This document shows positions 2,807 through 51,152 of a DNA stretch of 64,000 nt, piece after piece. The notes under the pieces are model-generated. The model was not told where the DNA came from, ran no database searches, and worked only from the letters and a program-made list of their open reading frames with translations. How positions within the stretch are numbered: position 1 is the stretch's first letter; every line of letters starts with the position of its first letter. The position numbers were made by a program, and so were the translations under genes. The DNA is taken from NCBI GenBank assembly GCA_022592445.1, contig JABYQR010000259.1, positions 1 to 64,000 of the forward strand, written 5' to 3'. The DNA is from Cytidiella melzeri. Its lineage: Eukaryota > Basidiomycota > Agaricomycetes > Polyporales > Irpicaceae.

Positions 2807-3097
2807 CACTCGTGCAGCAGAGCTTATGCAGGCAAAGGGGTCCTATACTAGGTATTTTACTACAAAAACCTTGACAAAGTTTTACATAGAATAGTCGAGA
2901 TGATGCACAATAGTAGTACTATTTGTACAGCACACGAGCGCTAAACGCAGCTTTGCGCGGATCGTGCACGATTTTTGGCACACAACGCAGACCATACCAA
3001 GAACATGATTTGCACATTGTATATAGTGTGTGAAAATTGAGAATTGATAAAAATGCGCAGAAATGAGCTCGCACAATGAGAAAATCATTGCGCGCTC
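2807..3097. other. Intergenic flank, no gene seen
   Basis: About 290 bp of ordinary sequence between the inverted LTR-A and the left end of the CACTA-like element. I see no coding potential. Its last three bases, CTC at 3095-3097, are the left target-site duplicate of the CACTA-like element. Confidence 0.6.
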
Positions 3098-3110
3098 CAC
3101 TGCACGTTAG
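3098..3110 (+). repeat. Left terminal inverted repeat of the CACTA-like element
   Basis: Thirteen bases, CACTGCACGTTAG, exactly matched in inverse at 16705-16717. Homology continues imperfectly inward to a shared TGGATATTGCGTG block (near 3130 on the left, inverse near 16673-16690). CTC duplicates sit immediately outside. Confidence 0.88.
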
Positions 3111-3449
3111 CCCTGAATTCCCATTGTGGATATTGCGTGTATATTAGTGATATCCATCCGATATCCACCCTATATCCATTCACACTTATTTCCATGCAAT
3201 AAAAATGTAATATCCATATAAGCGCCCATAACTATAATCCAGACCCGCAAGGAGCACCCGTCGGCAGTACTCGTAAGCACAATTATATCCTGCGGCGACT
3301 CATCAGCAATTGGCGCATCAGGAGCATCCAAATCGAGCAGGCGTTGGCCGCTTCTGATTACATAACACTTCGTTGATGGCAACTGAACTGGATGGCGCAG
3401 CTGAGAACAACGGCTGCATTGCTTTCAACATCGCACCAAGACACTCACA

Positions 3450-4240
3450 ATGTCAGAAGCACCACTGAAATCTTGGCTCGCTTGGAACAAGGTCGAGCCA
3501 GTCATTCAGGGCGATCCGGACTTGCACGCTGCCCTTAAGCAAGTGATTTTGATGGCGGAATCTTTTGTCGCGCTCAAAGACGGCTTCAATGGCGACGATA
3601 ACATGTCCGCCAACATTGTCGATTTTGCCTGCACGGTAGAGATGTGTATCACTCAGGCATGCATGATAACCAGTGCGCAAAATCTTTCCTTTGCATGCCG
3701 GAAGCTTGTGAAGTCTGTCGAGCTTCTTTGGCAGCGGCGCACCGAGCATATATGCATGCAATCGTAAGTACAAATGTATCTGCAGTTAACGCAATAACTG
3801 ATGTTTGTCTTGTTAATGTCAAGAACCTCCCTCGCTCTGCCGGAGACTGTCAATATCTGTGGTTTGCCTGCGCAGCGCTCTCTCGCTCGCTACAAGTGAG
3901 TATCATGAATTTGGTATGCGCTCTCATGTCTGAAGATCAATAGACAAACTACTCTCGATGACTACTTCACTGTGACACAGAAACTGGCCCATAATCAGCG
4001 CCGTGCCATTTATCCGCAGGCTCAACGGTCAGTGTCTCACCTCCAAAACTGCTCGGTATAAACAGCTCTCACACATTCATTCACAGACTCCCCTCGTTTC
4101 GCCAACTCCCAATTGACATTTCCTTTTGCATTGTCGCTCCAGTTTTGAGATCCAAGCATCCGGCCTTGGACGTGTTGTTGGCGCCGTCTGGATATCATAC
4201 GAGCACGCGAGCTGGAATGTATGATCTCAAATCACTGTAA
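3450..4240 (+). CDS. Small spliced transposon protein with a PIP-box-like motif
   Basis: First gene inside the left end of the CACTA-like element. Proposed exons are 3450-3763, 3824-3895, 3944-4027 and 4087-4240, joined by 48-60 bp introns and giving 207 residues. If the last intron (donor GTCAGT, weaker than the others) is not spliced, translation stops at 4061 (167 residues). ATG at 3450 is the first good start. The N-terminal part is helical-looking with scattered Cys; no family is recognised. Residues encoded at about 3946-3969 read QTTLDDYF, a textbook PCNA-interacting (PIP) pattern Q-x-x-L-x-x-Y/F-F. I infer, without proof, a link between the transposon and the host replication clamp. 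The gene converges on the next one. Confidence 0.55.
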
Positions 4241-4570
4241 TAGACATTATACGCACAACAAAGTATAGCATGATTTTGAGCGCACTCTGTTGCGGCGGAG
4301 GACTTGGAAATTGGCTCACCAGGCATCAAATAAGTTCCATTTTATGTATACACTCTGCGCGTGACTGGATAGAATGGGCACGTACCAATAGCGACAGTCA
4401 GGAAAGACCATATTGCCATGTCTGAACAGAGTGTGAAGCCCCACTGCACTCAGCGTACCAGCGCGCAATCCTGACATTCCAGTCTACTGATTAGCATACG
4501 TTTCCAAAATATATGACAGTCCCAGCGTAGAAAAGAGTCAACATGGGGGACATGACGATGAAGCGCGAAG
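4241..4570. other. Convergent intergenic region inside the transposon
   Basis: About 330 bp between the 3' end of the small plus-strand gene and the 3' end of the large minus-strand gene. No coding signal was found. It presumably holds both 3' untranslated regions. Confidence 0.5.
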
Positions 4571-7240
4571 TTACATTGCAGCGGGTAAAGCACGACCTGA
4601 GAGTTCACCAATGTTTGTCAGCACGTTCGTCTTTGCAGCCTTCCTATGAGGCAACGTCCGGCACCATTCTTGAGCAGTTTTGGGCTGGACTTTACCGTCC
4701 AGTATCGCCTTGCAATGGTTCACGAAGAACTGCTCATTCCTGGCACTCCAATAGTCGAGGTCCACCCCCAATTGCGACCATGTTGTTACAGTTGGCCACC
4801 ATGACCAATACGCAGTACCCGAAGGGCCATTCTCAGGGTGTTCTGAGATATAAGCAGCATTGTAATTTGTCCAAGAAACATGGTACTTACCCGGCATGAC
4901 CCTGTACACTCCGCAGATCACATCCTCTTGATGTGGCGATAATACATCGTCCACATAGTCCAAGCCGTCCAGTATACGATGGTTACACCGTGTTTGGAAC
5001 CCACTCGGACCGTTGTATACCGCTGAATCGTCTGCATAGGCGTCACGGGCCAGTCGCCACAGCAAGCCGCCCCGTAACAAGGCAGCGCGACCCTGAACAC
5101 TTTTGATGACCTCCTCTCAATATTTGAGGAAGTCCTCATAGTCCGCAATCGTGAACTTGTGACGATGCTCAATGAGTCTGAGCCCTAACGGTACCAGGTT
5201 GAAATAAGAGGACATCGGGGGAGTTGGCTGAAGCACCGTTGGGTCCGCAATTGACTGAAGTGTGTTGAAGGGCACTCCCCATCTGAGCAATGCGCCAGTC
5301 ACATCATCCAACGAGGGACCTACCCCGGATTGTAGGAGGTGGTTCACGGTGACAGGGTCGGCCAGGCAAGGAGAGCGAGAGTGACGTCGAGCAGAGCGAG
5401 AGCGACGTCAAGCAGAGCGAGAACAACATGGAGCAGAGCGAGAACGACGTGGAGCAGAGCGAGAACGACGTCGAGGAGAGCGAGGGCAACGAGGAGGAGA
5501 ATGAGAGCGACAAGGAGGAGAACAAGGGCGACGAGGAGGAGAACAAGGGCAACAAGGAGGAGAGCGAGAACGACAAGGAGGAGAGCGAGAACGACGAGGA
5601 GGAGAGGGAGAAGAAGGCGACTCAGGCAATGTATCAGCCTGAGGACTCGCAGCCATGGGCGGATTCTGTAATCGCAGTGCGTCGTCAAAGTAGCCCCAAC
5701 TATCCACCAATTCCTGATCCTCAGTCGTAGCAGATGGGTCCAGCTCCTCCCAAATGTCGAATTCGTTGAAGGTCGCATTGTACCTGCATTGCGACCGAGC
5801 AGTGCCGGCCCACAAGTCGCGCCAGCAAGGCTTTCCAACAAGAACTCTGTTCCAGGCGTCGCTACTGTCGTCTGACTCTTCTCATCTGAAGACTTGGCAG
5901 TTGTGGCTCTTGTTTGGGAGTTCGAGATTGACATGCAGCACCTCCCTTGCTTGCACACGAGCCTTCTGCACCGGATTCATTTGGGCAAGTTTCGCTGCAC
6001 TAACCTTCTCTCTCCTTGCAAAGAACTGCTGGGGTGTTTCACCCAGTGCCTGACCAGTGGTCAAACTTTGCCCTCGCGTGGCGACATAAAGAGGGCCAGG
6101 TGGGTGTGTCACGTTGCTCACTTGCGACGAGGTGGCAGGGGGCACATGGACAATGTTTGTGCCTTCAACTGAGGACGGCCAATGAGTGTCAAGTGAGCCC
6201 CAAGCAGAAGACAAGGATGGTGCTGAGGACGGCCAATGAGTGTCAAGTGAGCCCCAAGCAGAAGACGAGGATGGTGCTGAAGACGACGAGGGGCCGCCCA
6301 AGGACTCCACGCCTACAACATCACGAGCCTCTGCAACTTCTTTGTTCCATTTGTCCCTAGCGAAACGCGCTGCAGGCTGTCGAAGTGAGGCTTCCAACTC
6401 AACTGCTGAGGGCAGATACTCGGTGGACCAAGGGTGCTCAGAAACTGCTGGGCGCGGTCCGAGGTACAGCCAGACAGGCAATTGAAAGTGGTTTATGAGC
6501 TCCTGGAGGTTCTCAATCGTTGACCCCAATGCTGCGACGGTGACGTCGACAACAAGCCCCAATCTATCAGTGGTGGACTGGTCAGCCTTGTCGCCGACCA
6601 GGCAAATTGTAGACCTGCGCAACATGCGTGCCTCGTGTTCGGAAACCAGCTTCCAATGTTGCAATGAGTCCAACCAATGTTTAGGCAATAGATGTCCCGC
6701 GTATGTTACCTTCGGCACGTTGATCCTGAAGACTTCTCGCACAATGCCCAGGAACAATTTGGCTTGTTTTTTCGTTGGCCAGCTGTGATCGTAGTTATAA
6801 TCTTGTGGCCAGGGAAACGTGTTGCGATCTACCTGGACGAGCAGAGGCGTATACAATCCTAAGGGGAAAGTTCGCTTCATCCCGTCGAGGACTCTGCGCA
6901 GGAAAGCCTCCAAGTCACGCCACTCTTGTACATTCTCCAACCTCCACTGGTTGTCGTTGCCTTGGACTACCTTGATTCCCGCCAGCGGTTGCAGCAGACC
7001 GGTATACTGTGTCTCTCTCGGCGTGACTGCGGTCCAATAGTGTGATTGGTTGGCCAGTCTTGTGTAGAGCCATGGCCAGGGCAGCGGAAGGCGATTAATT
7101 TTTTTTGTGAGGTTTTCCGGCGCAAGCTTCGGGAGAGTGGACATGTTGGGAGAGACATAGAGGCCAGGGTAGCGGGGGATATCAGTCTCAGAAGCCCACA
7201 ATACCGAGGGCTTGGGCAGGGTTTGTGGGAGGGTCGACAT
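4571..7240 (-). pseudogene. 890-codon transposon cargo protein broken by three TGA codons
   Basis: From ATG at 7240 one intronless frame runs to the stop at 4571, interrupted only by TGA at 5882-5884, 5408-5410 and 5117-5119. The flanking segments keep the same frame and look like one protein. The N-terminal half has many Trp and Pro; then come a Ser-rich tandem duplication (SSSSAWGSLDTHWPSS twice), a basic helix with FFARRE, a low-complexity Arg/Ser/Pro repeat, and a C-terminal domain with LLRGGLLWRLARD and WWPTVTTW. I recall this architecture from a large, functionally unknown Agaricomycete family often found in transposon-rich DNA. One stop replaces CGA within a repeat whose sister unit keeps CGA; another sits where relatives seem to have Trp. 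So it looks recently inactivated by transitions. It is divergent from the transposase gene. Confidence 0.75.
5360..5620. repeat. Coding minisatellite inside the cargo gene
   Basis: About 260 bp of degenerate 15-24 bp repeats built on GAGCGAGAACGAC and GAGGAG on the plus strand. In the minus-strand gene frame they encode an Arg/Ser/Pro-rich (RSRSP-like) stretch. The plus strand also has an open acidic frame (5428-5730), which I regard as a by-product of the repeat. One unit has GTCAAG in place of GTCGAG, which creates the TGA at 5408-5410. Confidence 0.75.
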
Positions 7241-9137
7241 ATCAGCGCTGCAGGGATATTAGTTTGGAGGCACAACCTGATCAGGGTAGGACACTTACGA
7301 CTTGTGATGGGGTCGGTGAGTAGCGAGTGTCTACGGCACCAGATGTAGGGAGAACTTGGCGACTATCAGCAACGAGCGAAAGCGTAGCAAAAATTTGCAC
7401 TGACGAGCAGAACAGTTTAGGACCTTTTCAAACGTTGGCCTTCTCAAAGAGGCGGCGCGTCCTTGCAAAAGCTTGGCTGTCGTGAGCAGACAAGTCCAGG
7501 CAGAAACTAGGCTGCAGGCTCAGATGCTACGGAGGTGGAGGACTCCGGTGGCAGATTCTCCGCTACCGTGTCTGAGGACGTGTGTCGAAGGTCGTTGTCA
7601 ACGTGCTGGTTAGGTTGTCATCGAGATGTAGGTGCTGGGCGAGGACTCCGGTAGCAGATTCTCCGCTACCGTGAGTGTATGGAGGGGAGGAGGAGGTACA
7701 GCTGGCGGTGAAGGACTCTGGTAGCAGATGCTCCGCTACCAAAAGTTGGAATGTGGGTGGTGGTTGTGGTGGTGAAGGAGGACTCCGGTAGCAGATGCTC
7801 CGCTACCAAAGTTTGGAATGTGGGTGGTGGTTGTGGTGGTGAAGGAGGAAGACGTGTGGGTGGTGGTGATATTGGTGGTGGTGATATTGACGGTGGTGAG
7901 AGCAAATGAAAAGGAGGAGGAGGTGGTGGTGATGGTGGTGGTGGTGGTGGTGGGAGGGCGTTGCAGGAGGAGGAGGTGGTGTGGTCGTCGTGGTACGTGG
8001 TGGTGGCAGTGAGAGTGGTTTGGGCACAGATTGAACCTTGTTCTATGGGCGCTCGGCGTTATAGATTAGATTACCAACAACTTGCCAGCGCATTGTCGGG
8101 TTGCTTTTGCGCCCTCTACCTCCGACCACGACCACAACGACATCCACTACCACAACCACAACCACCGCCTCGTACACCATCGCAGCGGAGCATCTGCTGC
8201 GATGTGTCGTATGATCACCACCTTCTTTTCCTCACCACATACCTGCGACCACAACCACAACCACAACGTCCACTACCACAACCACAACCGCCGCCTCGTC
8301 CACCATCGCAGCGGAGCATCTGCTGTAATGGGTCGTATGATCACCACCTTCTTTTCCTCACCACATACCTGTGACCACAACCACAACCACGACGTCCACT
8401 ACCACCACCACAACCACCGCCTCGTACACTGTCCACCATCGCAGCGAAGCATCTGCTGCGATGGGTCGTATGATCACCACCTTCTTTTCCTCACCACATA
8501 CCTGCAACTACAACCACAACCACAACGTCCACTACCACAACCACAACCACCGCCTCGTACACTGTTGCAGCGGAGCATCTGCTGCGATGGGTCGTTGTCC
8601 TCTACCTGCGACCACAACCACAACCACCACAACAGCCACTACTACGACTACAACCACCGCCCTGTACACTGTCGCATGAACCGCTCTCTTCACAGATCCG
8701 CATGCCTTCGAGCACATTGCTACAAGACACTCCCCGAAGCTGCTTACTGGCACCCTTTGTTTCCTACCGTCAACAATGCCAGGGTCGATATCCTGTCGGC
8801 TTAACCGTTGACGGATATCGGACACTGCCCTGTCGGCTTGACCGTTGATGGATTTCGGCTGAGCACTCACGGGACGTCTGAAGGGGGCGAGCTGCAAAAC
8901 ACTCCTTCTCCCCTGTACACTCTCCACCCTCTCTCTCTCTCTCAAAACTCGCATTCATTTGCAGATTCTTGGATTTGTACTGGAGGGTGTTACTCCGATC
9001 ACGCTTTGTTGCGCGAGCGCTTCTATGTCACGTGTCTCCTGCCTTGTTAGGAAAGTCAGCCTAGATGTTGCGCAAGTCAAGACGTCTCATTGACTGTATG
9101 CTGCCACCACTCGCCGCCATTGATCACATTTTCTCTG
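7241..9137. promoter_or_regulatory. Divergent intergenic region between cargo gene and transposase
   Basis: This 1.9 kb gap separates the starts of the minus-strand cargo gene (7240) and the plus-strand transposase (9138), so it should hold both promoters. Its centre is filled by strand-asymmetric repeats (separate entry). The parts at 7241-7540 and 8700-9137 show no repeats and no convincing gene. Long frames such as 8082-8804 are His/Asn-rich translations of the repeats and are not supported as genes. Confidence 0.5.
7540..8690. repeat. Inverted minisatellite arms (GGTGGT-rich then CCACAA-rich)
   Basis: The left arm (about 7540-7850) repeats a ~68 bp unit containing GGTAGCAGATGCTCCGCTACC and GGTGGTGGTTGTGGTGGTG. 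The middle (7850-8030) is almost pure GGTGGT-type sequence. The right arm (about 8110-8690) repeats a ~120 bp unit four to five times, containing CGCAGCGGAGCATCTGCTGCG and runs of CCACAACCAC. The core AGCAGATGCTCC of the left arm is the inverse of GGAGCATCTGCT in the right arm, so the two halves can pair as a roughly 1.1 kb imperfect hairpin. Confidence 0.8.
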
Positions 9138-12100
9138 ATGCCAGCCAAGACTCTCTGCCCATGTCAGGAATGTCAGATTGCAGGTGGCCAATTTCACACC
9201 ACCGAGCAGATTCGACGACATCTCAAGCGTGAGCAGCTCTTGCAGCAAGAGTTTGAGCAATCTTTGGATGAGGAACCCAAGAGAAAAGCCAAGACAGCCC
9301 ATGCTGTTGTTTCCGAAGCGCATCCGCAACCTGCAGATCATATGACGCAGCAGAGAGAGGGGGAGGACATGGGCAATCCCGCAGGGGACTATGAACCACC
9401 GCCTGTGAGTTACCATCATTTGTTGTGCAGCAAACTCAATGTACTCAATGCAAGTAGACTTGTTCAGACTCAAGTGAAGCTGATGGTGAAGATCTGTACC
9501 TGGATGAATTGCACCTGGATCCATCTAGGGCTTCTGGTAATGTCAATCCCCGTGATCACTGTGCGCAATGTTTCTGATGCTTCCAATCTGGCAGATTCCA
9601 ATCGCGGGAATGACCATGAGCATTTCTCTCGGTCGCCTTCTCTTCCGGACTAGCAGTCCTCTCGAAGCCAGTCCCTTGAGACAGAACAAGATGATGAAGA
9701 CGACACCACCTCTGACAATGCTGGGCTCAACCTAGAGCAGGACCCTCTCTATGTCGACCTTGAGAATATTTTTGACAAGGTACACCAACCGCCGGATGAC
9801 ATCTTTGACCGGGGGATCGATCAGGATTTACCGTCAGCTTTCTACGAGGATCCCATCATTCGCAATATCTACCTTCGCGTCTTTCTGGAGGCAACATTCA
9901 ACCACGCCACCCACGAATCTGTTCAATCTCAGCTTGACGCTCACCACCAGACACTTAAAGCCTGTCAGGAACGCGGTTTGGTCATTGCGGGGCTCAACAC
10001 AATGGCGCAAACCATTTGCACTGTTGAACGACGACTAGGCGTTGACCCTGATTGTTATCTGGTATACTATTTTGTCTGCAATGTTTGCTGGGATTGTCAC
10101 CACCCTGATGAACTCAGCACACTAGCCTCACCAGCATGCCAACGAGATGACTGCGATGGCCGTCTCTATACCGTCAAGCATCTTGAGAAACAAGTGAAAC
10201 GCGTGCCCAATAAAGTCCTAGCCACTTGCCCCATTATTCCACAAATCCAACGCATGATGCTGCGTCCAGGAAAGTACGAAGAATTTCAACACTGGCATAC
10301 CGCAGACGATGAGCCAGGACCGTGTGCACCGGATTGCCGAGAGGGATTGGATGCTTTTCCCAATCCAGATGCACCTCTGCGAGACATTTACAATGGATGG
10401 GCTTGGTGTGCTGCGCAAGCAGGGCTATCACGTAGGCAAGGTGGTGAATGGGGCGTACAGGACGTGGACACCACACAAATCAACCAGCGGTTTGTCTCGT
10501 TGCCCAATGGGCTACTCATCATGATCAACATTGACTGGTATGCCACCTCTTGCTGCGCTCTATGGTGGTCAATTTTTATTGATGCCACAGGTTTACTCCC
10601 ATGAAGACCAACAATTTTGCGAGCAAGTACTCGTGCGGTGCCATGTACGCTACCATCTTAAACAATCCAAGGCAAAAGCGGTTTCATCGCGATGAAACCG
10701 TGCTCCTTTGCATCATACCAGGACCTGGCGAGCCCTCACTCGAGCAGCTCAATGCCGTCATTGAGCCATTCGTGGCTGACATGTTACAGCTTGGTGATGG
10801 TACGCTCTTCATCTCAGTCTCATTTGCAGCCATCTGATTGAATGGCAGGTGTTCCGCTGAGAGCCCACAGTGTAAACGAGCGCGTGCTTACTCACGCGTC
10901 TGTGTTCATAAATTCTTCAGATTTGCCTGCAAGTCGCAAGGTAACCGGGCTTCGATCGTGTACCAGCAAACACTTCATGTGTCCGTGGTGCTGTCAAACG
11001 GTGGCATTGCTCACACACGAACACTGTTTCACTCCACAAAGTGAGCCAATCTATAAATTGATTGACCTTTGTCAGATGTACATTTGCGGCCTATAGAGTT
11101 TCAACCGCGTAAGAACTGGCGATACCTGAAGTACACATTCTATGCTCGAAACAAGGACGCTGCAGAGCGCGAGGAGATTGCTCAAATGAAAGGTATACAA
11201 TGGTCAGCACTTGACGAGCTGCCCGGTTGGCTGCCAGCACGAAACTCTCCACTAGAGTTCATGCATGCCACGTTTCTTGGTAAGATGTTTGTATTTGTGG
11301 ATGCAGGCTTACCGTAATTACTCTTCGCTACAGGGGAGGTGCATCACGTCATGCAGGAAATTATAGTGGGTGGAGGAATGCTCAATGCACGCAATCGCCA
11401 CGATAAGCCAAAGGAGAAGTTCACTGCTTTTTCGGCGTCAATAGAGTGGCCTGGGTCCATTGGCCGGATACCTGCCAAGGTGAGTCACCGGGTTGTAATC
11501 ATATCAGCATTTAATCGACCCATTGTGTACTGAGGTCGATGAGGGAACTCTGAAAGCAGATCACTGGCGAAATTTTGCCAATGTTGTGCCTGTGGCTCTG
11601 TATTGTGCCTGGCAGATTGACGGCAAGATCCCAAACACTGATGCACCCAGGTCCAAAGCGTCAACAAAGGCAGGCCAAGCTGAAGCCCGAAAAGAATCTC
11701 TACTGGCAGGCCGCCGCCGCGAAGTGTGTGCATGTGATCAGAATGTAACAGTCGAAGACTTGCAAGACAGCGACGACGAGGGGGCCCTACGTAAGGATCA
11801 AATCAAGATGAGTCGTAGCTACCGTGACCATTACGAGAACATCCTCAACCACTGCACTGCTATACAGATCTACGTGTCTCGGTCTATTACACCGAGAGAA
11901 GTAATGCGTGCTGGCAAAAACCACAGCCGCGCGTGTGCCTCGTGGGCACGAATGGGGTGTCATTTGACACCCAACTTTCACCTTTCTGAACACAATCCTG
12001 ACTTTCTACTAGCATACGGCCCTCCATACGGATACTGGGGCTATCCAATGGAGCAGCACAACGGGTTTCTCAAGCAGTTTTGCTACAACGGACATTCTGG

Positions 12101-13712
12101 TGGAGAGCTCGAAGCAACCCTGATGCGTGGCTGGATCAAATATGGCCTCATCTCTGATCTGGTTACACACCCCTGCCTACGTGTATACATGTGTCTGATG
12201 ATTTATAGGTGAACCACCTTCAATTGCTAGAAGACCCGACAGACTGCGACCGCCAAATGATCCAAACACTGGAGAATTACCAGGGGGGGGGGGGGGCATA
12301 AAGGCACGCGACGCAACATGCTCATGAATACGATGGCTGCCAGAGTAAACACAGCTGAGGGTAAGATTGAATGCATTGGAGGGTATCTTGCTCAGTTGAT
12401 TGGATGTAGGTTCTATCGAATATCCGTCCCGCTCTCACGCCATCAACCTCAAAACTGATGTTGCCGTGGCGCCAGGCCACAATCTCTATGCCCTCATGCT
12501 AATCTATTTGCAGAACCTTTGGCATGCCGAGTTAGCCCTTGTGCCAGACACGGCACCTGCAAACATGGGCGAACCCTTTGTTTGTTCTTCCGTTAGGATG
12601 TACAGTCATGTCTCATTCAACGGCATAAAGTATGGCTCTGGTGCCAAGCACGGGGGTAAAGCATATCGCCACACGTACATTGACGGACGACAACCAGTTT
12701 GCATCGCAGCTGTACTGCATGTGAAGCATCTCCAAGCAGATGCCCGTTTAGCACCACTGGAACATACTTGCGCGGTAGTGCAGCGATTCATATCAGATTC
12801 TCATACGCCTGGCATGCCCTGGGATTTACAGTGAGTATGTCTTCCCTGTAATATACGGATCTCACTCGTCATTGCTAGTGCAATAGATCTAGGTCTGGCC
12901 ATTGTCACAGATTTTCAATGTTTCTACAAGACTTGCCTTACCAGGCAACGGTATTATGGGGAATATTTAAGCGCTTATCAGGCGCTTATCCAGCTCTTAT
13001 CTGGCGCTTATTAGGTGCTTATTCCGGCGCTTATTCTCAGTGCCTATCAATTGATGCGCTGATGCGCTGATGCGCTCCTTTCCTTATCTGTGTATCACAT
13101 GATAGAACTCTCTGGAACCTTGTGGAACATGCTGGAACTATGATGTCATAGTTCTTATAACCTTCTGGAAAAGTCTATTCTTGGAGCTGGGTCATGGGGT
13201 CAGGTCATGGGGACAATTGCTATTGGTTGATTTTTGAAGTGGCACCACTAGGGCATAGGGCATGCTTAGTAAGGTAGATTACTTTGCTTACTCATGTAGG
13301 TAACTAGGGGTCTTAGGGTAGTACCGGGGGTTCTCCCCTTCATGTATATATACTTCGTACTCCCCAGTACTCACTCTCACCAACACTATACTCTCTATCT
13401 CTCTATCTCCCCCTCAAGTTAAACACTTATCTGGTGAGTGCAACCTTAACTGTTACAGCCATATGGAAGGCCAACTGTTTAGCCCCCCCCCCCCCGGAGC
13501 TCGTGCCAATCACTCGAATGTGTGCACAATTTGCGTGTGGAACACTCACTTACAGGACACATCGTGAGTTTTGGGTCACAAAGTCTGTATGTCATGTAGG
13601 TCAATTCATGTTACATACTTTACAATTGGTTTCTACAAACATGCTATTACTACAGGACACACAAGAGCCGGATCTCGCTCTTAGAGGAGACGCAGAAGAC
13701 AATGTTGACTAA
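9138..13712 (+). pseudogene. Plavaka-like (CACTA superfamily) transposase, disrupted
   Basis: A multi-exon gene whose exons, in order, encode an N-terminal Cys motif (CPCQEC), a CxxC cluster (CNVCWDCHH), the LPNGLLIMINIDW block, IIPGPGEPS, DLPASRK with a following Cys pair, LPGWLPARNSPLEFMHATFLG, and FLLAYGPPYGYWGYP with NGHSGGELEATLMR. This order matches my memory of Plavaka transposases. Early exons are 9138-9404, 9458-9536, 9595-10537 and 10591-10799, continuing from 10849; most introns are clean GT-AG. Lesions: TAG at 9651-9653, a run of 14 G near 12283-12296 that shifts the frame (12 or 15 G would restore it), and a solo LTR-A inserted at 12903 in the penultimate exon, after which the frame resumes (AIDLGLAIWKANCL) to TAA at 13710-13712. 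It was probably the mobilising enzyme of the element. Confidence 0.85.
12903..13457 (+). repeat. Solo LTR of family A inside a transposase exon
   Basis: Starts TGTCACAG and ends CTGTTACA, flanked by GCCAT at 12898-12902 and 13458-13462. The exact 5 bp duplication defines both LTR ends. Removing the LTR and one GCCAT rejoins the transposase reading frame. At 555 bp it is shorter than the 736 bp of the 5' LTR of element A (after subtraction of its insert). It has a TATA-like TATATATA near 13345 and fewer GCGCTTATC-type repeats. Confidence 0.93.
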
Positions 13713-16137
13713 GCTGACGCGTACATGTCATTGTCTTGACTGCCATCCTGAGAGTATGTGTAGCGCAGACTACCTTTGTCGACGTCACGATCGGCGTGCA
13801 AGTTGTCACCTAGGCCTCTGTCCCACACTCCCGTATGCTGGCCACTTCTGAAGTGCGCTCTCCCATCAGCCCAATTACCTTCACTGTGCCTGTTGCCGAA
13901 CTCCTCTCTGTCTCTCGCTCTTTCGTCACCAAATTCTTCGTGCTCGTTACCCATGGCTCCACCAGACTGACTCTCCATGTGTTGACCTCGAAGGTCATCC
14001 ACGTGCGTACCATTTTGTTCTTCATTGTAAACAACAGGCTGGTTCGATGTATGCGTTGAGCCTCGCATCTCATTAGCTGCGACGCTTCCTAATTGTAGAC
14101 GGATGTAGGTATCGTTGTCTTGGTTGGAATTCTCACGTAGCGCTAGCCAAGCAGCATCAATGTAAGTACGATCAATGCTATCTGCTGTGTTTGCTCGACC
14201 TCGCTTTGGCAGCGGAATGTCGATTAGTTTGCCCAAGATGTGTGCATGTCTACTACCTGAGTGTGAGTGCAAATCCAGCTTGTTAAGGAGTGCATTGATC
14301 TGACAGAGAAGTTAGAGTCGGCTTGAATGCATAGTTGTGTGTTTGCTCACCTCTTGCGTACGGTATGTAGGCTGCCTTCTGACCCACGGTTAGGAAGAAG
14401 GCTTCTTCTTTGATCCAGTGTTCCGGATACAACCAGCAACTGCCTGCGATGCTTGAGGAGGATCATCACTATCAGGCGACAGCCGGTTGTTGTTGCCACG
14501 GGTAGGTGAATCATCTTCTGCTGCTGAGTACTCATCTGACTGGTATTTGGCTAGGAACATCCAGTTGTAATCCGGTCCCGCAATCTCTGGAACCTTGTCG
14601 CGGTTTTGAATCCTAGCTTTGACTTTCTACAGGTAGCTTGACTTGTCAAACACGGTGTATATGGAAAAGCTGAGTACACACCGTCACCCTGCGCTGTTTC
14701 ACGTGAGCCTCGCCAGCTAATTTCTCTTTCTCCTGTGCAGATTTGCAATCCTTGAGCCATTTGTGGTGCAGACTCGTCCAATAAGTCTGGGTTGCATTCT
14801 GCAATTCTACTACGGTGAGAGATGCAAAGAATTGCTCGGCGTCAACCCCGCGTGGTACCATGTACAGCTGCTTCCCTTGAGTCTTGGCTTTTTCGACAAC
14901 CTTGTCTCGCCAGGATATCTCATTTGGCAACCAGGCAGACCAGATTGGAAGCAGGCGGCGAGAGTGATCAAGAGGATCATCGCTGGTCCAGACTCTTCCA
15001 TCAGGAAGATGCGGCGTTGTTTCATTCAAGTTGATGACGGTTCCCATCAATGTCCTCATGACAGCGCAAATGAGTCCCTGCAGCAGACGTAAGACACGGT
15101 ACGTCTGCAGATGGCATTGGCGATTACATGGTACTCACATTTATCATTGGCTCTCTAGTTCTCACTACTCCTCCTGACACAGATGCCGCAGAACCAGACG
15201 CAGACATTGCACTACCGTCCCCACCGGCCGCAATGTAAGCACGTATCTCATTTATTTCACAGCGTAACGAGGTGAGCTCTTGCCGTGTCAACTCCTCCGT
15301 CTCTCTTGAGCCTTGATAGAAAGCATACAATTCATTTGTGGTACGCCGGAGCTCTGCCAAGTCCAACGAGGTCTCTCTACACTGCTTTGCAAGCTTGCCA
15401 ATATCTGTCGTGTTGAGATTTCCTGTTGTCTGTAAGTGTCTCAACGAATCCTCGAGGGACTTCATTCTATCACTAATAGCTTTCACGGTATTGGCCGTAT
15501 TGGCAGAGCTAGACAGTGGGCGAGGTTGCATATCTACGGCTCCGAAGGTCATGGCCATGGGCTGTCGGCTGCTGGCACGTTCGCGAGAAGACATAGGTGA
15601 GTTATTAGGCAATGCCATCGCAGAAACAATGAGACCAGACGGCTCAATCGAGGGAGCGCGCGAACGAGAAGGTGTTATTGACAAGGGACGGCGAGAATAT
15701 AAGGAGGGATGACCAGGCCCTAGGGAATATGGACTGCTGGACATGCCAGGTGGGTTATCAGTCGCGGTATGCGCTTGTTGCTGATTGGGTGGCAGGGTAG
15801 ACAAAGGTCGAGCAATGCGGGAAAATGGATCGTTGGATGGAGGGTATATTCGGTTGGGATGCGTGTCTGCCGAGGCATGCATATAATCTTGCGCATGAAG
15901 CTGAGCAGGAATAGACGAGGCGCGATGCGAATGGGAGAATGGAAATTGGAAACCGGAGAGTGGCTGCGACAAGGAGGTACGAGCTATGGGCTCTGATGAA
16001 ATACTTGCAGAGCCTGGACTTATAGGGCGTTGTAGGGCAGGATATCGATTAGAACGAACTTCAGCTCCGGAGGCTGACGAGGGTGGACAAGTCTTTCTTT
16101 TGCCAAGAGGGCTGGTAGCGGGATTCGTCTGAGACAT
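13709..16137 (-). pseudogene. Coiled-coil transposon cargo protein
   Basis: Exon 1 (15139-16137, starting MSQTNPAT) encodes a Ser/Pro-rich disordered region and then a heptad-rich coiled coil (about residues 235-305). Exon 2 begins at 15077 and encodes a domain with LLPIWSAWLPNEI and a run ending in charged helices. A third exon starts near 14632 (KVKARI) and ends near 14352 (TYRTQE). The last exon (about 14300-13709) is acidic and low-complexity. Exon joins keep frame across GT-AG introns, but TAA at 14390-14392 interrupts exon 3 just before a segment (RRQPTYRTQE) that looks conserved. It may therefore be broken, or an unseen splice removes the stop. Its stop (13709-13711) overlaps the transposase stop tail to tail. 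I recall similar proteins beside Agaricomycete transposases, with unknown function. Confidence 0.65.
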
Positions 16138-16704
16138 AGTGAAACGACGCGCGGGGAGCAAAGTTGTGGGACTGGACGGCACAGACCAAGCTGGGGGTGG
16201 GAGCAAGGTGAGCTCAACATTCGCAGCAGCTGTGTGCATTACTGATCAGGATAAATCCAAATTACTAGTTGTGTTCATGTCGCACGCGCGCGAATCACAT
16301 TCATCATGCGTCGTCGTACGCACGCGTACTGTACAGTTAAGTTTGATATTGATGTCGATGTCGCGCATGCAGCACAATCCTCACAATTGCGAGTATACGT
16401 ATACGTATACTAGCTATAGGTACATGTACATTAGTATTACAGGTCAATGTATCCTGTACATGCATGGTCAGCTCGCGCGTGGTGTGCAATGGCATAGTGG
16501 CCAAAAATCAATTAATTCTGAATATTAATATACTGCCCGATTATAATTATCGCTGATCAGGCGTCTACGTGGATATTGAATGGATACAGCATGGAAATTC
16601 CAACTATTCTAGGCTCTATCCACGCAGTATCCATTCTGAGAAGTGCATGGATATTGCGTGGAAATTTTCCATATCCACGCAATATCCATCGTTGATATTC
16701 ACGT
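16138..16704. other. Right subterminal region of the CACTA-like element
   Basis: Upstream region of the coiled-coil gene plus the subterminal repeats. About 16388-16410 holds a TATACG-type short palindromic run. From 16569 to 16700 there are at least seven TGGATAT/ATATCCA or TGGAAAT motifs in both orientations, matching the left subterminal region. No further gene is seen. Confidence 0.65.
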
Positions 16705-16717
16705 CTAACGTGCAGTG
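16705..16717 (-). repeat. Right terminal inverted repeat of the CACTA-like element
   Basis: CTAACGTGCAGTG, the exact reverse complement of the left terminus, followed by the CTC duplicate at 16718-16720. Confidence 0.88.
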
Positions 16718-17132
16718 CTCGTACACCTCAAGTTGGGCAAAACCTGCTCCGCGCGTGACAGTGGCAGCTGTGAGAAAGCGATGCGGGCAGGCGTTGGCAG
16801 CCTCAAGACGGGGTGCTGAACAGCTGCCGAAGAAAGGTGGTGCAATGGTGGTGTGGGGTGTGTGACAGCGGTGGACCGGAACCATTTGCCTGCGCTGCGA
16901 GCGTCACACAGGTTTCATCGCCTGCCTCACAGATGAGTTCTCTATGTTCAATGACTGATTTCGTAAGCTTATCGACGCTGTTTCATCATCACTCGAATTG
17001 ATGTGTTCAGGTGCCTGGAACATTGTCAGCTCTACAAGCTAAGAGGGCGAAACTGCCCTATATATATTCGAACAGTATTGTCTTCAAGCTGTATGTAGTA
17101 TGTGCGTGAACTGTACGGTAAAGATGATGTAC
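16718..17132. other. Flank between the CACTA-like element and the next gene
   Basis: About 415 bp with no gene I can support. It begins with the CTC duplicate of the CACTA-like element and contains a short palindrome (AGGGCGAAACTGCCCT, near 17044) and an AT-rich TATATATATTC near 17060. It is downstream of the minus-strand gene that ends at 17133. Confidence 0.5.
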
Positions 17133-20100
17133 CTAATTAAGACTGCGTGAGTGTGGTAGCCGTAGGATCACCTTACGAAGTTCCTCAGGACTTCCCACCC
17201 CCTCATCTGCTGCCAACATTTCCGCATCTTGTCCATCGCCCGCCTTCTCTTCCACACGTTTACGCTTCTGGCTCGCTGCGCGTGAATCTTTCACATTTTG
17301 TTTGGCTTGAAGTTTGGCTGCCAACTCATCGTGACAGGCCCTACGTGCTTGCGATGTCGGGAATAAGGGGATAGGTGCTGTAAGTGAACGAGGTATTGCA
17401 CGACGGATGAGATGTGCGTTGTGCAACGCGTGGAGGTTCACGACGTACTCGTCAAGCAAACAATGCTCGACATGAGACTCAGTTTGACCTGAGTCAATTC
17501 GCTCCTGAGTAATGACCCGTGAGCCCGTAGTTGAGCATTGCGCGCAAGGACAGTCGTGCTGTACATTAAAACTAAATTGGATATCCTGTCCATTGGTGAT
17601 TTATTGGATCCAACTCATGGCAAAATCACACGAGAGACTCACCGTGCAGGAAACTATGAGGCTTTGCTTCTCCCCAAATCGACGAATCAAGCGGGGCATC
17701 TCCCAGACAATATGTCGATCGGCTGCGAGGTCAAAGGCATCGACAACGGCGTATGCTTTCGAACAATCCTCGTGCGCAAGGATTTCAATGATACGACCGA
17801 GCAAGTTATCATCAGGATCCTGCGAGGCAATTTTGATTACAATGATTAGCACACGAGGAATGCCCATCCATATAGCTGTGACTTACCAATGGAGAGCGGG
17901 CAACAACCCATGTTCCTACTTCGCACTTGTCACCTGAAGTCGCTACCAATGACGTGCAACCAAACCAAGGTAATGAGTCGTGAGCAACGCTCGCCGCATT
18001 AAGGGTTTTTGCTGCATGAGTCAGCCGCCAAATCTGCGCTGCTCGTAAGATGCGAGACCCTGTCTTTGAATCCTTCGGGATAGGCTCGAGACGAACAGAA
18101 CCTTTCTCAATGCCATGAGTGAGTGATGATGAATGTCATGTTGGCTCAGACGTACCCGGATGCTCTGGTTGGCTATCATTCCAGCCGAGAATACATTGAA
18201 TGCTCGAATTACCTCGAATCAGGTCACGAACTCCCGCGCCAGCTCTCACCCATGTAATGTCTTTGTTGTCGTTGCCTTCCTGAGAGCCCTCCACATTATC
18301 TGCACTGCGGAGCGTCCAATTGAGTTTCTTTGAGACCGGCCACCACCCTCCCGTGACTCGATGTTTCATGCCTTCTTGATTAGCAAGCTGATGCGCAATA
18401 TCGTGACTTGGTGCGAGATGGTTTGAGAAAACTGAGCATTGTCGAAAGACCTGGTTGAAGCGCTCGTACGATTCAGTCGAAAGACCAACAAGCGGTCCAA
18501 AGCGTCGAATATCGTCCGGAGCGTGAAGCAGGAGATGCAGCTTTGACTTCCAGATGATCTTGCTTGGATCTAGAATGGAAAAGAGGTCCAGAACGTTGGC
18601 TACGGCAACTTCTACATCAGCCTGGACTCAGCTTAAGTGAGAACGTGAGACGAGATGATGGTGAAGGATATGTACCGTGTATTGATCCATGTCGTCAATC
18701 TCAGGCATCCAAAGCAGGGCCATCAGAAGCCCAACGGCTCTCCACACATGCAAAACCTTGAGTTCAACAAGATCATGTATGTGAAATACTGACACTTGAC
18801 CAATGGTTTTTAATTGGCGTCCGATGAGAGAATTTGCGTACTGGGTGATATAGTTTGCGCGAATGGGTGGAATATTGAGTCCGCAAGTATCCGTAGCCTG
18901 GAGACGTTGTGCGTATTGCTTCTTGTCTGCTGCAGACCAAGATGACCAAGATTTGTACCATACATACTTCACAATCCCGAGCAGGATAGTGTGAAGGATC
19001 TCGATGGGCGTGTCCTGCGTTGGGTCGAAACCTACATGTTGGAATTCAAAAATCCGTCAGAAAGAGCATTGACAGTCATACGTACCTCTGATACGAAGGT
19101 TAGGATTGAAGATCTTGTCCCACTTGTTGGTAACCCAGTCCATGAGCTCACTGTAGATGCTCTCTTGTGGGCGTGTTTGGTCTTGCGCCTTGAGCGTGCG
19201 TGCACGAGTGATAAGGTCGGCAATCCACGGCTCTGTATATCCATCCTTTACTCCGCTGGCTTTCTGACGGTCTTCGACACGTGCAGCTACACCTGTGCAA
19301 GCCTGACTAACCTGCAGAATCACCTCGCGCAACGACTCGGTGACATTTCGGGGCTTGCCAGCCTGCAGTGAGAGGATACCAAGTGTCAGTAGGGTTTATA
19401 CCGGGACAACAGACATGGAACAGAACTGGCGTATGTGGAAAAGGCTATCATAGCTGTCATTTGTCATCTTCTCTCTACGACTCCCACCCACTTTGCACTT
19501 TCGGCAAGAACAGTTAGAGCTACCACCGATATGACCGCTAGCCTCGCTCTGCATAGGATTGTCCATCGGCTCTGCATTGAGGAAAAGATGGAAGCGGATG
19601 TTTTCACCTGTAGTTGCATGTCGGGTGCGTACAGGATGTACATGTGTCAAGCTGCTCGAGGGTTGACCATACGTAAGATGCAGTGCTTCGAAGTCAGATA
19701 AAACATACTCTAATTGCGCCTTGAACCCTTCAATCTGCTCTGGGACACTCGCGTGCTGAGATGTTGAAAGGAAATGAATATGGAAATCTTGTTGAAGAAG
19801 TCGACAAGGGAGATTCCGATGCGAGACGTAAAGATTGTTGTGCTTGTTCCATGACTTTGACCTATTGCCAGAGACGTCGTCGCCAAACAGGTCCACAAAG
19901 CTTGAGTACAGAGGATCGCCTTGTGCTAGCTTACGGAGTGGATTTGGCATCTTCGCTAGTACCCCGCAATATTGCTCTGGGACGGATGTGAGCGTAGAAT
20001 GAAATAAAGGAGTAGCGGCCACTGAACCTTTGAATGCCGGTATTGCATGGCTGTGCTGCAAATCGAAGAAAATTTTTATCAAGGCAGACGCTTGAACAAG

Positions 20101-21564
20101 AATGATGTCCTCGTTGCAGTCACATATTTGTGCCAGCCCAGACTGAAGCAACTGCTATTAGCGCAATTTGTGAATGCATGCGAGATGATGTCTTGCCTGA
20201 GAATCCCAAGAAACAGGGAATGACTCTGCATGCAGCTCGCCCTGAAATACAATCCACCGTATCGGGAGAACAAGCTTGTTTGTTCTGAGTTGCGCAAACT
20301 CTCCAACGTAATAGTGCTGAATGCCATTCGGCGCAACATACATTGGAGTGAGCATATCGAGATCCATGTCCTTTCTGAACCAATACGATTGCCATATCTC
20401 GGAGACGGGGCCAATTGGAATCTCTGGATAATAGCGAATCTCCGGACAGACCAGCGGATTCATGTAGTCCTGTGGTAATGAATAAGTGAGCGTACCATGA
20501 TATCTGTGAACATTGACGCACCTGTGCAATAATGGTGCTAACGTCATTTTGGTAGTAGTTATTCCCATGTGCCGACTTATACTGATGGGTCACCACTCCG
20601 TTGCTGCGGCGTATTGTATCTTGAATCTTCATGAACTCGTAGAGCGATGGTGTCTCAGGTACGTTCATTTCCTTCAATACCCATAGAACCATGCTCATCT
20701 GCGTATTTGAGATACGGTTGCGTGGGCTGTTATAGAGAATATCCAGTAGTGATATCTGAGTTTTGAGATGCAAATGGACAACGAGAAGCATGACTTTGAA
20801 CACGACGCACAACTTTATTCCCATATGGATACCATTGGTCTATTGGGTCGGGTAGCTCATGGCTACTGCCAAATGCTATACGCTGGATGTCATCACCAGC
20901 AAGCTGATGATGTAGATCTAATGCGCTGTCAGGTATACTGCTACGGGTACTGCAGTCCAGACGTACCGAGGTTTTCCATTGCTGATGCTATACCTTCATC
21001 ATATTCATTGACATTTGCAGCACCGTAAGAATCCTGAAGCAACTCGCTGGTTTCGACGCCGGCAAGCTCGTGAGTAGCACGGTCTGCATTCCATAGTCCA
21101 TAGCTATCGAGACTTGCAGACAGTTTTTTCCTTTCTGCATTTTGCACCTCATTGGAGCGCATCTGGATAGCAAAGTTGTTAGGATCCCACTCATAACCGA
21201 AGAGCATTTCCTCAGCTTGGGAAGACAGAGCAGGAGGCGAAGGGACACCTCGGTCTTCTGATAACAGAGACAACGGCAATAAGCCAAGGTGAGAGAGGCG
21301 AAGCCTGTCGTGCAACTCAGCAGCGGCCTTGATCTCGGCAGCCGAGGAGGCAACTGTGGCAACTTGGAGTTGCGCAGCTGCTGTCTGGTCGGACTGAGTC
21401 TTGCGGCGGCGAAGGTGCACTTTGTTTTTGAATACATGCTTGTCCACATTCTTGCGCTCCAGCCAATGCAAATCGTCCATTGCAGTGTGGTCTTCCATTG
21501 GGTGACAGAGAAGACATCGCACAAGCAGCGGATTTGTTCGACACTCAATAATATCTGCGAGCAT
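17133..21564 (-). CDS. Large transposase-like protein, apparently intact
   Basis: A gene of about a dozen exons starting at ATG 21564 ([11 protein letters not shown]). Blocks in order: a CLLC motif near the start; WYPYGNK joined by a clean intron to [31 protein letters not shown]; a block with [14 protein letters not shown] and [13 protein letters not shown]; a Cys cluster ([10 protein letters not shown]); [56 protein letters not shown]; and a basic C terminus ending 17133. I found no stop or frameshift between blocks. The intron at 20152-20196 is GC-AG (CAG|GCAAGA). I recall this as an expanded Agaricomycete family; the FGDDVSGN and PIEILH blocks suggest a distant CACTA-type DDE transposase, which is inference. 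It is divergent from the gene at 22113. I found no terminal repeats around it. Confidence 0.72.
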
Positions 21565-42065: not shown

Positions 42066-43564
42066 TGTCACAGATTTTCAATGTTTCTACAAGACTTGCC
42101 TTACCAGGCAACGGTATTATTGGGAATATTTAAGCGCTTGTCAAGCGCTTATCCGGCGTCTATTTAGGCGCTTATCCAGCGCTTATCCAGCGCTTATCCA
42201 GCGCTTATCTGGCGCTTATCAGGCGCTTATTCCAGCGCTTATTCTCAGTGCCTATCAATTGATGCGCTGATGCGCCTCCTGTCTCTGATGCGCTGATGCG
42301 CTCCTTTCCTTATCTGTGTATCACATGATAGAACTCTCTGGAACCTTGTGGAACATGCTGGAACTATGATGTCATAGTATAGAACATTCCATTAGATGAT
42401 GTCATAGTTCTTAGAACCTTCTGGGAAAGTCTAGCCTTGTCTTAGAACAAGCTAGAACAAGTCTAGCCTTGGAACTGGGTCATGGGGTCAGGTCATGGGG
42501 ACAATTGCTATTGGTTGATTATTGAAGTGGCACCACTAGGGCATAGGGCATGCTTAGTAAGGTAGATTACTTCGCTTACTCATGTAGGTATTAGGGGTCT
42601 TAGGGTAGTACCTGTGGTCCTCCCCTTCATGTATATATAGAGGCACTCCTGAGGGCATATCCCCTCAGTCTTATCCACTCTGTTGATAAAGGACCACTCT
42701 GTACTCTCCAGTACTTCGCTCACCACACCTCCTACTCTCTATCTCTCTATCTCCCCTTCAAGTTTAACAACTATCTGGTGAGTGTCATGGATGGCCTGAC
42801 TAGCCCTCAATTTTCGCAATTTACCTCTTGTTTTTATCTGTAAAACTCCGGGCTGCAGCTCAGTTGCAACCTTCCCTGCATAAACTCCCTTTTCACGTCT
42901 AATAAGCGCCCGTATCACGTGGCTTAGACGCTCCACACGGTCACATTACTTGCTACTACGTCACACTGGCATGTGACTTAGCTTAAGTAAGACCACATGG
43001 CTACAAGCACATGGCTCAGCCCATAGCTAGGGTTTGACATCATAGATACCGTCCACATGGGCTCCTTATTGTTCTTTCCCTATTGTTCTCTTTATGGAAG
43101 GATGTTCTCACAGGTGTGGGAATGGAATACAATAGTTGGTCTCCTTTTAGATAGATTCTCTCACGAGTATAGTTCTTGGCAAGGTCTAGACAATAGCTAT
43201 TGTTCTCCTTTAGGTAGTTCTTTTGTTCTTCGTTCACACGGCTTCTTGCAAAGCCTGCCCTTAACATGGTCTGTGCGCAGGTCCCTGAAGTCTATATAAG
43301 CAGCTGCATGTATGCTCCTAGCCCCCATCTCGACCTCTTGGTCTTTACTGGGCTAGGTAAGCAAACCCCCTCTTGTACTACATAGCGGGTAGTATCAATT
43401 CTAACTTGGTCTTTACTGGGCTAGACATCTGCATAAGGTTTATAGCTGGTGAGAGTATTGAGCTTCACGCCTACCACCACCACTTCGTCGTCATCCACTT
43501 CGTGTCCCTGTTTGTCACGTCGAGCCTTGTCTCCGTGTCAGTGAGTGTAACCTTAACTGTTACA
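42066..43564 (+). repeat. 5' LTR of gypsy family A
   Basis: Begins TGTCACAG and ends CTGTTACA. Without the nested LTR-B and its duplicate it is 736 bp. It carries about ten GCGCTTATC-type repeats (42132-42250), a TGATGCGC repeat pair, and TATATATAGAGG (about 42632), a plausible TATA box followed by the expected R region. Confidence 0.9.
42783..43540 (+). repeat. Solo LTR of family B inside LTR-A
   Basis: 758 bp, starting TGTCATGGATGG and ending CTCCGTGTCA, flanked by GTGAG at 42778-42782 and 43541-43545. The duplication is exact and shows that B was active after this A copy inserted. Confidence 0.93.
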
Positions 43565-50450: not shown

Positions 50451-51152
50451 TGTCACAGATTTTCAATGTTTCTACAAGACTTGCCTTACCAGGCAACGGT
50501 ATTATTGGGAATATTTAAGCGCTTGTCAAGCGCTTATCCGGCGTCTATTTAGGTGCTTATCCAGCGCTTATCTGGCGCTTATCAGGCGCTTATTCCGGCG
50601 CTATTCTCAGTGCCTATCAATTGATGCGCTGATGCGCCTCCTGTCTCTGATGCGCTGATGCGCTCCTTTCCTTATCTGTGTATCACATGATAGAACTCTC
50701 TGGAACCTTGTGGAACATGCTGGAACTATGATGTCATAGTATAGAACATTCCATTAGATGATGTCATAGTTCTTAGAACCTTCTGGAAAGTCTAGCCTTG
50801 TCTTAGAACAAGCTAGAACAAGTCTAGCCTTGGACTGGGTCATGGGGTCAGGTCATGGGGACAATTGCTATTGGTTGATTATTGAAGTGGCACCACTAGG
50901 GCATAGGGCATGCTTAGTAAGGTAGATTACTTCGCTTACTCATGTAGGTATTAGGGGTCTTAGGGTAGTACCTGGGGTCCTCCCCTTCATGTATATATAG
51001 AGGCACTCCTGAGGGATATCCCCTCAGTCTTATCCACTCTGTTGAATCAGGACTACTCAGTACCCACCAGTACTTGCTCACCACCACTCTAACTCTCTAT
51101 CTCACCACATCCCCCTCAAGTTAACCAACTTATCTGGTGAGTGTAGCATTAC
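50451..51152 (+). repeat. 3' LTR of gypsy family A, cut by element B
   Basis: Starts TGTCACAG after the GGGGGGG-TAA polypurine tract and is collinear with the 5' LTR. It ends at GTGTAGCATTAC where the 5' LTR of element B begins. ATTAC (51148-51152) is the left target duplicate of B. It has fewer GCGCTTATC-type repeats than the 5' LTR. Region 50217-50438 before the tract has no gene. Confidence 0.9.

Follow-up and report, generated by a model that had tools for sequence, protein, structure and literature searches.

The window analysed here, a 64,000-nucleotide stretch of contig C178 of the basidiomycete Cytidiella melzeri (Polyporales, Irpicaceae), contains a bounded element that we read, with a probability of roughly 85 %, as a decayed copy of an EnSpm/CACTA cut-and-paste transposon with four genes, a modular cassette and short derivatives that capture gene pieces. 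As reported in an initial annotation made from the sequence, exact 13-bp inverted termini (CACTGCACGTTAG) and CTC duplicates can be read directly on both sides and delimit a unit of 13,620 bp (Table 1). Inside this one pair of ends lie a small spliced gene (gene 1, +), gene 2 (−), a transposase gene (+) and a gene for a coiled-coil protein (gene 4, −), in the order which that annotation also gave. The results below support this four-gene unit as real in the genome of C. melzeri (49.7 Mb, 731 contigs), the one genome in which it is established.

Copies of the element in the genome

The 13-bp terminus was identified in 35 exact copies genome-wide (19 forward and 16 reverse), against none for a reversed-pattern control, and 22 of these formed 11 inverted pairs. 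The target-site duplication (TSD) was an exact 3 bp in ten pairs and 4 bp (TGTT) in the remaining one, in C21. A chance match of the ends was ruled out by the empty control, the inverted pairing and the TSDs. Three pairs were full length, namely the window copy, C96 (13,969 bp) and C501 (13,619 bp), and the pairing of termini elsewhere, on which the initial annotation had made its proposal depend, was thereby found at two further sites of 13.6–14.0 kb. The flanks of the three differed, and their large aligned blocks were mostly 94–97 % identical, with 80–85 % in repeat-rich blocks. The other eight pairs were short, spanning 565–7,765 bp. C397 represented a fourth near-complete copy of the window family (family A), in which the left end was exact but a right end was not found. 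Of the 13 unpaired terminus copies, 11 were examined at least in part, C535 and C700 being left out, and no empty site was found among the loci read for any of the 11 joined flanks. C501 sits 10 bp from a terminus of the type found in a second family, B, in head-to-head orientation (95 bp at 86 % identity; C501 contig from position 74036).

Matches to the first transposase exon, counted at E 1e-5 or better, defined ten loci: C178, C96, C501, C397 and C166 (A), C207 (B1), C690 and C31 (B2), C98 and C197. Genes 2 and 4 were present on the expected sides and strands at eight of the ten, in the same order and orientation, in agreement with the co-occurrence that the initial annotation had predicted; C98 carried gene 4 with no gene 2 match, and C197 neither. 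Gene 2 was commoner than the transposase, occurring at at least 38 loci (22 at ≥81 % identity and 16 at ≤60 %), a lower bound obtained by merging 67 matched pieces by reading and scoring 44 of 114 candidates. The idea of a single mobile system therefore stands in so far as the families co-occur, but they are not confined to one system: gene 2 exceeds the transposase in number, the cassette crosses transposase lineages, and a relative of gene 2 adjoins a Plavaka transposase. C293 and C634 displayed identical gene 2 matches and are a possible duplicate contig pair.

Within its family, the window element is bounded but decayed. Stops were present in both gene 2 and the transposase, the latter as a TAG within exon 1 (9138–10537), and a solo long terminal repeat (LTR) split the last transposase exon. 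The initial annotation described gene 2 as an 890-codon protein, a length that holds for the window, but the frame is not open, being interrupted by three internal stops; in C501 it stays open over 1,038 codons. Amongst 231 C-to-T or G-to-A departures of the window copy from C96 and C501, 143 were at CpG sites, the direction of change being assumed from the agreement of the two reference copies. CpG-biased C-to-T change is the expected decay of methylated DNA, and the mutation pattern of the window copy, mostly CpG, fits such decay.

Short elements carrying captured gene pieces

Six of the eight short paired elements (C11, C21, C38, C715, C80 and C401) held fragments of cellular genes, with four distinct contents drawn from seven donor loci that included TAF2 and CSN3. 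C38 and C715 carried two pieces of a MUG190-like locus (donor C721, below cut-off) around one ChaC piece (donor C135; PF04752, just above cut-off). C11 and C21 carried CSN3 (donor C157; PF22788, E 3.6e-22) enclosing a FunK1 kinase fragment (PF17667, 7.7e-8), for which the best donor, C168 at 94 %, was one of several related loci. C80 carried TAF2 (donor C729; PF25316, E 2.8e-19) including an apparent intron, suggestive of copying from DNA, and C401 combined a Fungal_trans-like piece (donor C28, below cut-off) with a piece of C312 that we take by eye, unconfirmed, to be GH79, Pfam giving no match for two donor pieces. C232 was an internal deletion retaining 13 bp of the right end. C190 was rejected as a gene-carrying element, its 746-aa open reading frame (ORF) being a DDE_3 transposase that we read as a nested transposon. 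Captured pieces were approximately 93–99 % identical to their donors in the aligned portions, and for parts of the short elements no donor was found.

These short elements have the structure of Pack-TYPE elements, being non-autonomous, with shared ends and TSDs and with cellular gene pieces inside. C38 and C715 (99.96 %) and C11 and C21 (99.93 %) were nearly identical at different sites with different TSDs, indicating that whole mosaics moved recently. Because of the shared ends and the near-identical copies at different sites, we infer that the short elements were mobilized by a related autonomous element. A left segment (C11 positions 170–669) was common to five of the eight (C11, C21, C80, C401 and C190) and to C39 and C247, and did not occur in any of the six elements of families A and B with which it was compared.

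With respect to the route of capture, we favour internal break repair. As in plant Pack-CACTA elements, the pieces could alternatively derive from two neighbouring insertions excised as one with the DNA between them, and an internal end-like 13-mer in C715 (positions 2024–2036, one mismatch) is a possible relic of such a fused neighbour; the family B-type terminus 10 bp from C501 likewise indicates that neighbouring insertions occur. Yet donor pieces from different contigs abut, with joins that share 1–5 bases by alignment or contain short filler, the C135 piece replaces part of a C721 piece, and the FunK1 piece is set within a capture already present, flanked in C11 by a 3-bp TCC duplication. 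Capture by joint excision is on balance unlikely as the general route, albeit the most credible of the alternatives that we considered. Consistent with stepwise internal repair, C39 and C247 matched the C11 sequence that flanks FunK1 on either side and lacked FunK1 itself, so that they apparently represent the stage before the second capture; other indels separate them from C11, and C247 is cut by the contig end.

A cassette of genes 1 and 2 shared between transposase lineages

The C207 element has a different terminus, CACTGCACATCAG, present in 18 copies genome-wide (reversed control, 1). Family B was read end to end in C207 (18.5 kb, TSD TCA) and C4 (10.0 kb, TSD CGT), the two elements from which its TSDs are taken, a third pair (C33) being left out. 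Both displayed the same four genes in the same order, with part of the transposase missing from C4. Positions 13352–18097 of the C207 element hold a nested 1,582-codon open ORF, Copia-type by eye.

Homology between families A and B set in 22 bp ahead of the gene 1 start codon and, at approximately 96–99 % identity in large alignable blocks and less in the repeat-rich spacer, ran up to a point 9 bp (A) or 4 bp (B) short of the transposase ATG. Beyond this cassette, the ends and subterminal DNA of A and B displayed no similarity past the terminal bases, and A and B1 were 59 % identical in the transposase and 30 % in gene 4. Synonymous divergence (dS) between A and B1 was 0.018 for gene 2 and 0.045 for gene 1, as against 1.7 for transposase exon 1. 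Over approximately 4.5 kb of cassette, the C96 and C501 copies of family A were 98.4–98.5 % identical to B1 C207, compared with 93.8–94.2 % to A C178 and 96.9 % to A C397. The B2 copies (C690 and C31), with a transposase 80–81 % and a gene 4 69–71 % identical to those of C207, had a first 1.2 kb of cassette 96.7–98.1 % identical to B1 copies and C96, and gene 2 proteins 91–94 % identical to that of C501. Thus the first 1.2 kb of the cassette was 96–98 % identical in DNA across three transposase lineages whose proteins were 57–81 % identical. In a tree of this 1.2 kb, B1 and B2 formed supported clades (0.99 and 0.95). Near-identical genes 1 and 2 in different transposase lineages show the unit, as far as these comparisons reach, to be modular.

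The cassette may either have passed between lineages more than once, or have entered the B lineage once and then been kept uniform by conversion. The junction between the left B end and the cassette was identical in six contigs (C207, C4, C328, C725, C690 and C31), which favours conversion; the right junction, from cassette to B transposase, was read in C207 only. The B copies in C328 and C725 also share their left flanks and may be allelic or duplicated contigs.

Two other explanations of the shared cassette fare poorly. The A/B hybrids could be assembly artefacts from collapsed repeats, given a 731-contig assembly with near-identical contig pairs (C328/C725 and C293/C634) and a right junction seen in one contig; we regard this as improbable, since the left junction recurs in six contigs and B-specific sequence runs directly into the cassette without a repeat common to both at the join. 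Slightly less probable again is a vertically inherited, co-evolving four-gene unit in which the cassette is alike through strong constraint, for although gene order was the same at all eight loci having all three large genes, the similarity extends to synonymous sites and non-coding DNA and ends abruptly immediately ahead of two start codons, and over 4.5 kb the B1 copies fall within the range of A. On the dS contrast and the 4.5-kb identities, strong constraint was rejected as an explanation of cassette identity. We therefore retain exchange or conversion of a modular cassette.

Transposase and superfamily assignment

In C96 the transposase gene comprised approximately nine exons by splice signals, of which alignment to family B also backed exons 1–6; towards the end of the gene, a poly-G run varied in length among the four copies. 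The family A protein, from the C96 exons, matched Transposase_21/tnp2 (PF02992; E 1.3e-9, 38.1 bits against a cut-off of 28.6), and a solved-structure search with the transposase returned no match. Residues D466, D561, C581, C584, H866, H870 and E890 were invariant between the A and B transposases, both of which contain the DDE residues, with the acidic catalytic residues assigned by eye, together with C(2)C and H(3)H.

The available part of Kojima 2025 (PMC12730594) gives EnSpm CAC..GTG ends with 3-bp duplications and Plavaka TGT..ACA ends with 2 bp or CATCA..TGATG ends with 2–3 bp, and describes C(2)C and H(3–4)H motifs as common to the transposases of both. The element ends (CACTGCAC..) fit the 5'-CAC..GTG-3' of EnSpm/CACTA and not those of Plavaka. 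These ends were found together with a 3-bp TSD, a tnp2 transposase, DDE with C(2)C/H(3–4)H and, in family A, subterminal repeats; neither the PF18759 domain nor TGT..ACA or CATCA..TGATG ends were found. Subterminal ATATCC/GGATAT motifs in C96 numbered 11 in the two terminal 335-bp stretches versus 8 in the 13.3-kb interior, and TATCCA occurred 12 times in the 500 bp beside the family A ends, a count reached by 0 of 200 shuffles. Judged by ends, TSD and transposase sequence, the window element is EnSpm/CACTA, in line with the superfamily call of the initial annotation, and not Plavaka. The same annotation termed the transposase Plavaka-like, which the motifs shared with Plavaka would allow (PMC12730594, in the part available) but which is very improbable, because neither the A nor the B transposase matched PF18759 whilst the same Pfam library detected Plavaka at another locus of the genome (C216, 6.5e-10), the family A tnp2 match was above cut-off, and both termini and duplication length fit EnSpm.

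Gene 2 beside Plavaka

The transposase position next to gene 2 was read in 3 of the 16 diverged loci (C216, C549 and C124). In C216, where gene 2 is 60 % identical to that of the window family, the divergent neighbour was the above Plavaka transposase, its PF18759 match being above cut-off. In C549, with a gene 2 also at 60 %, a 144-residue stretch was 98 % identical to the part of the C216 protein preceding the Plavaka domain, and the spacing to gene 2 was similar (2.46 kb in C216 and 2.40 kb in C549). C216 and C549 look like one family and are thus counted as one association, not two. In C124 nothing recognizable was present in the 1.7 kb beside gene 2. From the C216 and C549 arrangements we infer shared mobility of the gene 2 relative and the Plavaka transposase. 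A pogo/Tc5-type partner for diverged gene 2 was rejected: the neighbouring ORF in C406 (HTH_Tnp_Tc5), a locus in which the opposite flank of gene 2 was read, occurred at 13 places and beside no other gene 2, except for one 36 % match approximately 5 kb from gene 2 in C153.

Accessory genes outside the genome

A deposited C. melzeri protein, P0011, corresponds to gene 4 of C501 and backs most of the gene 4 splice model, differing in the first intron acceptor; no gene 4 protein from outside C. melzeri was found in the public protein collection. Gene 2 had one relative outside this genome at 35 % identity over 90 % of its length and five more at 26–34 % over 15–37 %, one of them from Mycena venus, and a profile search for further relatives recovered four, all already known. 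Searches of NCBIfam with a gene 2 relative, gene 4 and the Plavaka ORF yielded one sub-threshold SMC match, to gene 4.

Proposed mechanism

In the mechanism that we propose, the transposase would cut at the 13-bp ends and make 3-bp staggered target cuts, and would also move deleted copies in trans. The fast-evolving gene 4 protein probably helps to read family-specific subterminal DNA, in a role like that of TnpA; we suggest it as an end-recognition partner on the ground that gene 4 and the subterminal DNA remain with the transposase while diverging more quickly than it does. Genes 1 and 2 would constitute a family-neutral accessory cassette, either passed between transposon lineages or kept uniform by ectopic gene conversion, and captured pieces would enter short copies largely by internal break repair, copying from elsewhere in the genome. 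By analogy with the TET/JBP genes present in several fungal transposon lineages, as described in the accessible part of PMC12730594, genes 1 and 2 may act as a helper against silencing. Joined together, these steps give a broader picture to which we allot somewhat less than an even chance, namely that genes 1 and 2 are a transposase-independent helper cassette, perhaps anti-silencing, traded in mushroom fungi among EnSpm/CACTA lineages and, in the case of gene 2, with Plavaka transposons as well; that conversion keeps the cassette uniform; that transposase, gene 4 and ends co-evolve as a specificity module; and that the mosaics arise by repeated internal repair.

A number of observations weigh against our interpretation of the element as a four-gene transposon with modular cassette and capturing derivatives. 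In none of the three two-ended copies is every gene plainly intact: one or more genes are broken in each of the window copy, C96 and C501, the remaining copies having been read in part. Constraint among family A copies is little visible, the ratio of non-synonymous to synonymous divergence being 0.5–1.43 in 12 of 18 comparisons, ≤0.14 in three and undefined in three, values that rest on few changes and include one C397 gene 4 row with a poor alignment. The family B transposase, 59 % identical to that of A, alone gave no tnp2 match up to E 0.1, and no family B subterminal 6-mer exceeded shuffles (59 of 200 reached the top count). Pfam gave no match for genes 1 and 2 and only below-threshold coiled-coil matches for gene 4, and the structure prediction for the gene 2 relative P0001 was unusable (predicted local distance difference test score, 49); the roles given to genes 1, 2 and 4 are thus read from pattern, without homology support. 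Deeper nodes of the 1.2-kb cassette tree were weak (0.18 and 0.23), and in this stretch C96 was closer to C397 (98.5 %) than to C207 (97.7 %). Lastly, in the case of C715 the internal 13-mer speaks for a fusion of adjacent elements rather than for gap repair.

Relation to known systems

The window family resembles EnSpm/CACTA elements in its CAC..GTG ends, 3-bp duplication, tnp2 transposase, C(2)C/H(3)H motifs and subterminal repeats, and differs in its four genes of alternating orientation and in a gene 1 and 2 cassette found across transposase lineages. The link to Plavaka, of the fungal CMCT lineage, consists of the gene 2 relative that divergently adjoins a Plavaka transposase in C216 and the N-terminal part of such a protein in C549, whereas neither the transposase nor the ends of the window element are of the Plavaka type. 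Pack-TYPE elements have been described in plants (PMC8903248 and PMC13317346, in the parts available). Like plant Pack-CACTA and Pack-TYPE elements, the short elements here are non-autonomous, with CACTA-type ends and pieces of several cellular genes; unlike them, they are in a basidiomycete host, an apparent earlier stage of capture is kept, and several joins favour internal repair. A search of one literature collection by title and abstract found no report of Pack-CACTA-like elements in a basidiomycete, and mention elsewhere in such papers is possible.

Among fungi, a hAT element of Pyrenophora tritici-repentis with a histone H3-like gene was called the first transduplication by DNA transposons in fungi (Manning 2013, PMC3538342, as far as the accessible text goes). 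It is likewise a fungal DNA transposon with a cell-like gene, but on that text belongs to an ascomycete and has one histone H3-like ORF, in contrast to the multi-locus fragment mosaics of C. melzeri. TET/JBP genes, according to the available part of Kojima 2025 (PMC12730594), are carried by several fungal transposon superfamilies and are thought to move passively. They similarly represent an accessory gene across transposon lineages; from what that part describes, the C. melzeri cassette differs in combining a large gene without recognized domain and a small gene, in its near-identical sharing and in its sharp limits.

If these findings hold beyond this genome, some 'hypothetical proteins' of mushrooms would be identifiable transposon parts, which could be masked or investigated accordingly. 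The presence of near-identical genes across diverged transposases separates the end-linked parts of a transposon from its general parts, and the shared cassette genes offer material on which helper or anti-silencing functions could be tested. A basidiomycete case of host gene capture and joining, so far described mainly in plants, is provided by the Pack-like elements and the apparent earlier stage kept among them.

Features and flanks of the window element

Table 1. Positions of the element, its repeats and its genes in the window
Feature	Position	Strand	Basis
Whole EnSpm/CACTA element, family A, decayed window copy (C178)	3098..16717		Exact terminal inverted repeats and TSD; full-length relatives C96 and C501
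TSD CTC, left	3095..3097		Sequence reading
TSD CTC, right	16718..16720		Sequence reading
Left terminal inverted repeat, CACTGCACGTTAG	3098..3110	+	Exact match; genome-wide copies
Right terminal inverted repeat	16705..16717	-	Exact match; genome-wide copies
Left subterminal region, ATATCC/GGATAT repeats, unlike family B	3111..3427	+	Motif counts on copy C96
Right subterminal region, ATATCC/GGATAT repeats in outer part	16300..16704	-	Motif counts
Cassette: gene 1, gene 2 and spacer up to transposase	3428..9128		High-identity homology with family B
Gene 1 first exon, small spliced protein (only this exon delimited)	3450..3764	+	Open in C96 and family B copy C4
Gene 2, 890 codons here, three internal stops	4571..7240	-	C501 copy open for 1,038 codons
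Transposase gene, tnp2 type, ~9 exons, 3' limit approximate	9138..13700	+	PF02992 on C96 exons; splice signals; family B alignment
Nested solo LTR, 555 bp, TSD GCCAT, foreign to element	12903..13457		Copy comparison
Gene 4, spliced coiled-coil protein; exon 1 16137–15139, more exons to ~13709	13709..16137	-	Splice pattern close to P0011

To the left of the element, remains of a chromodomain Gypsy-type retrotransposon were present at 289–1593 (Integrase_H2C2 and Chromo, with rve just under cut-off). Directly to the right, a minus-strand chain of ORFs (17133–20154) reads by eye like another transposase; four pieces of it gave no Pfam match at E 0.01. Relatives of the nested solo LTR were identified at 2276–2806, 42066–42784, 50451–51155 and 63377–63990 (80–94 % identity in pieces).

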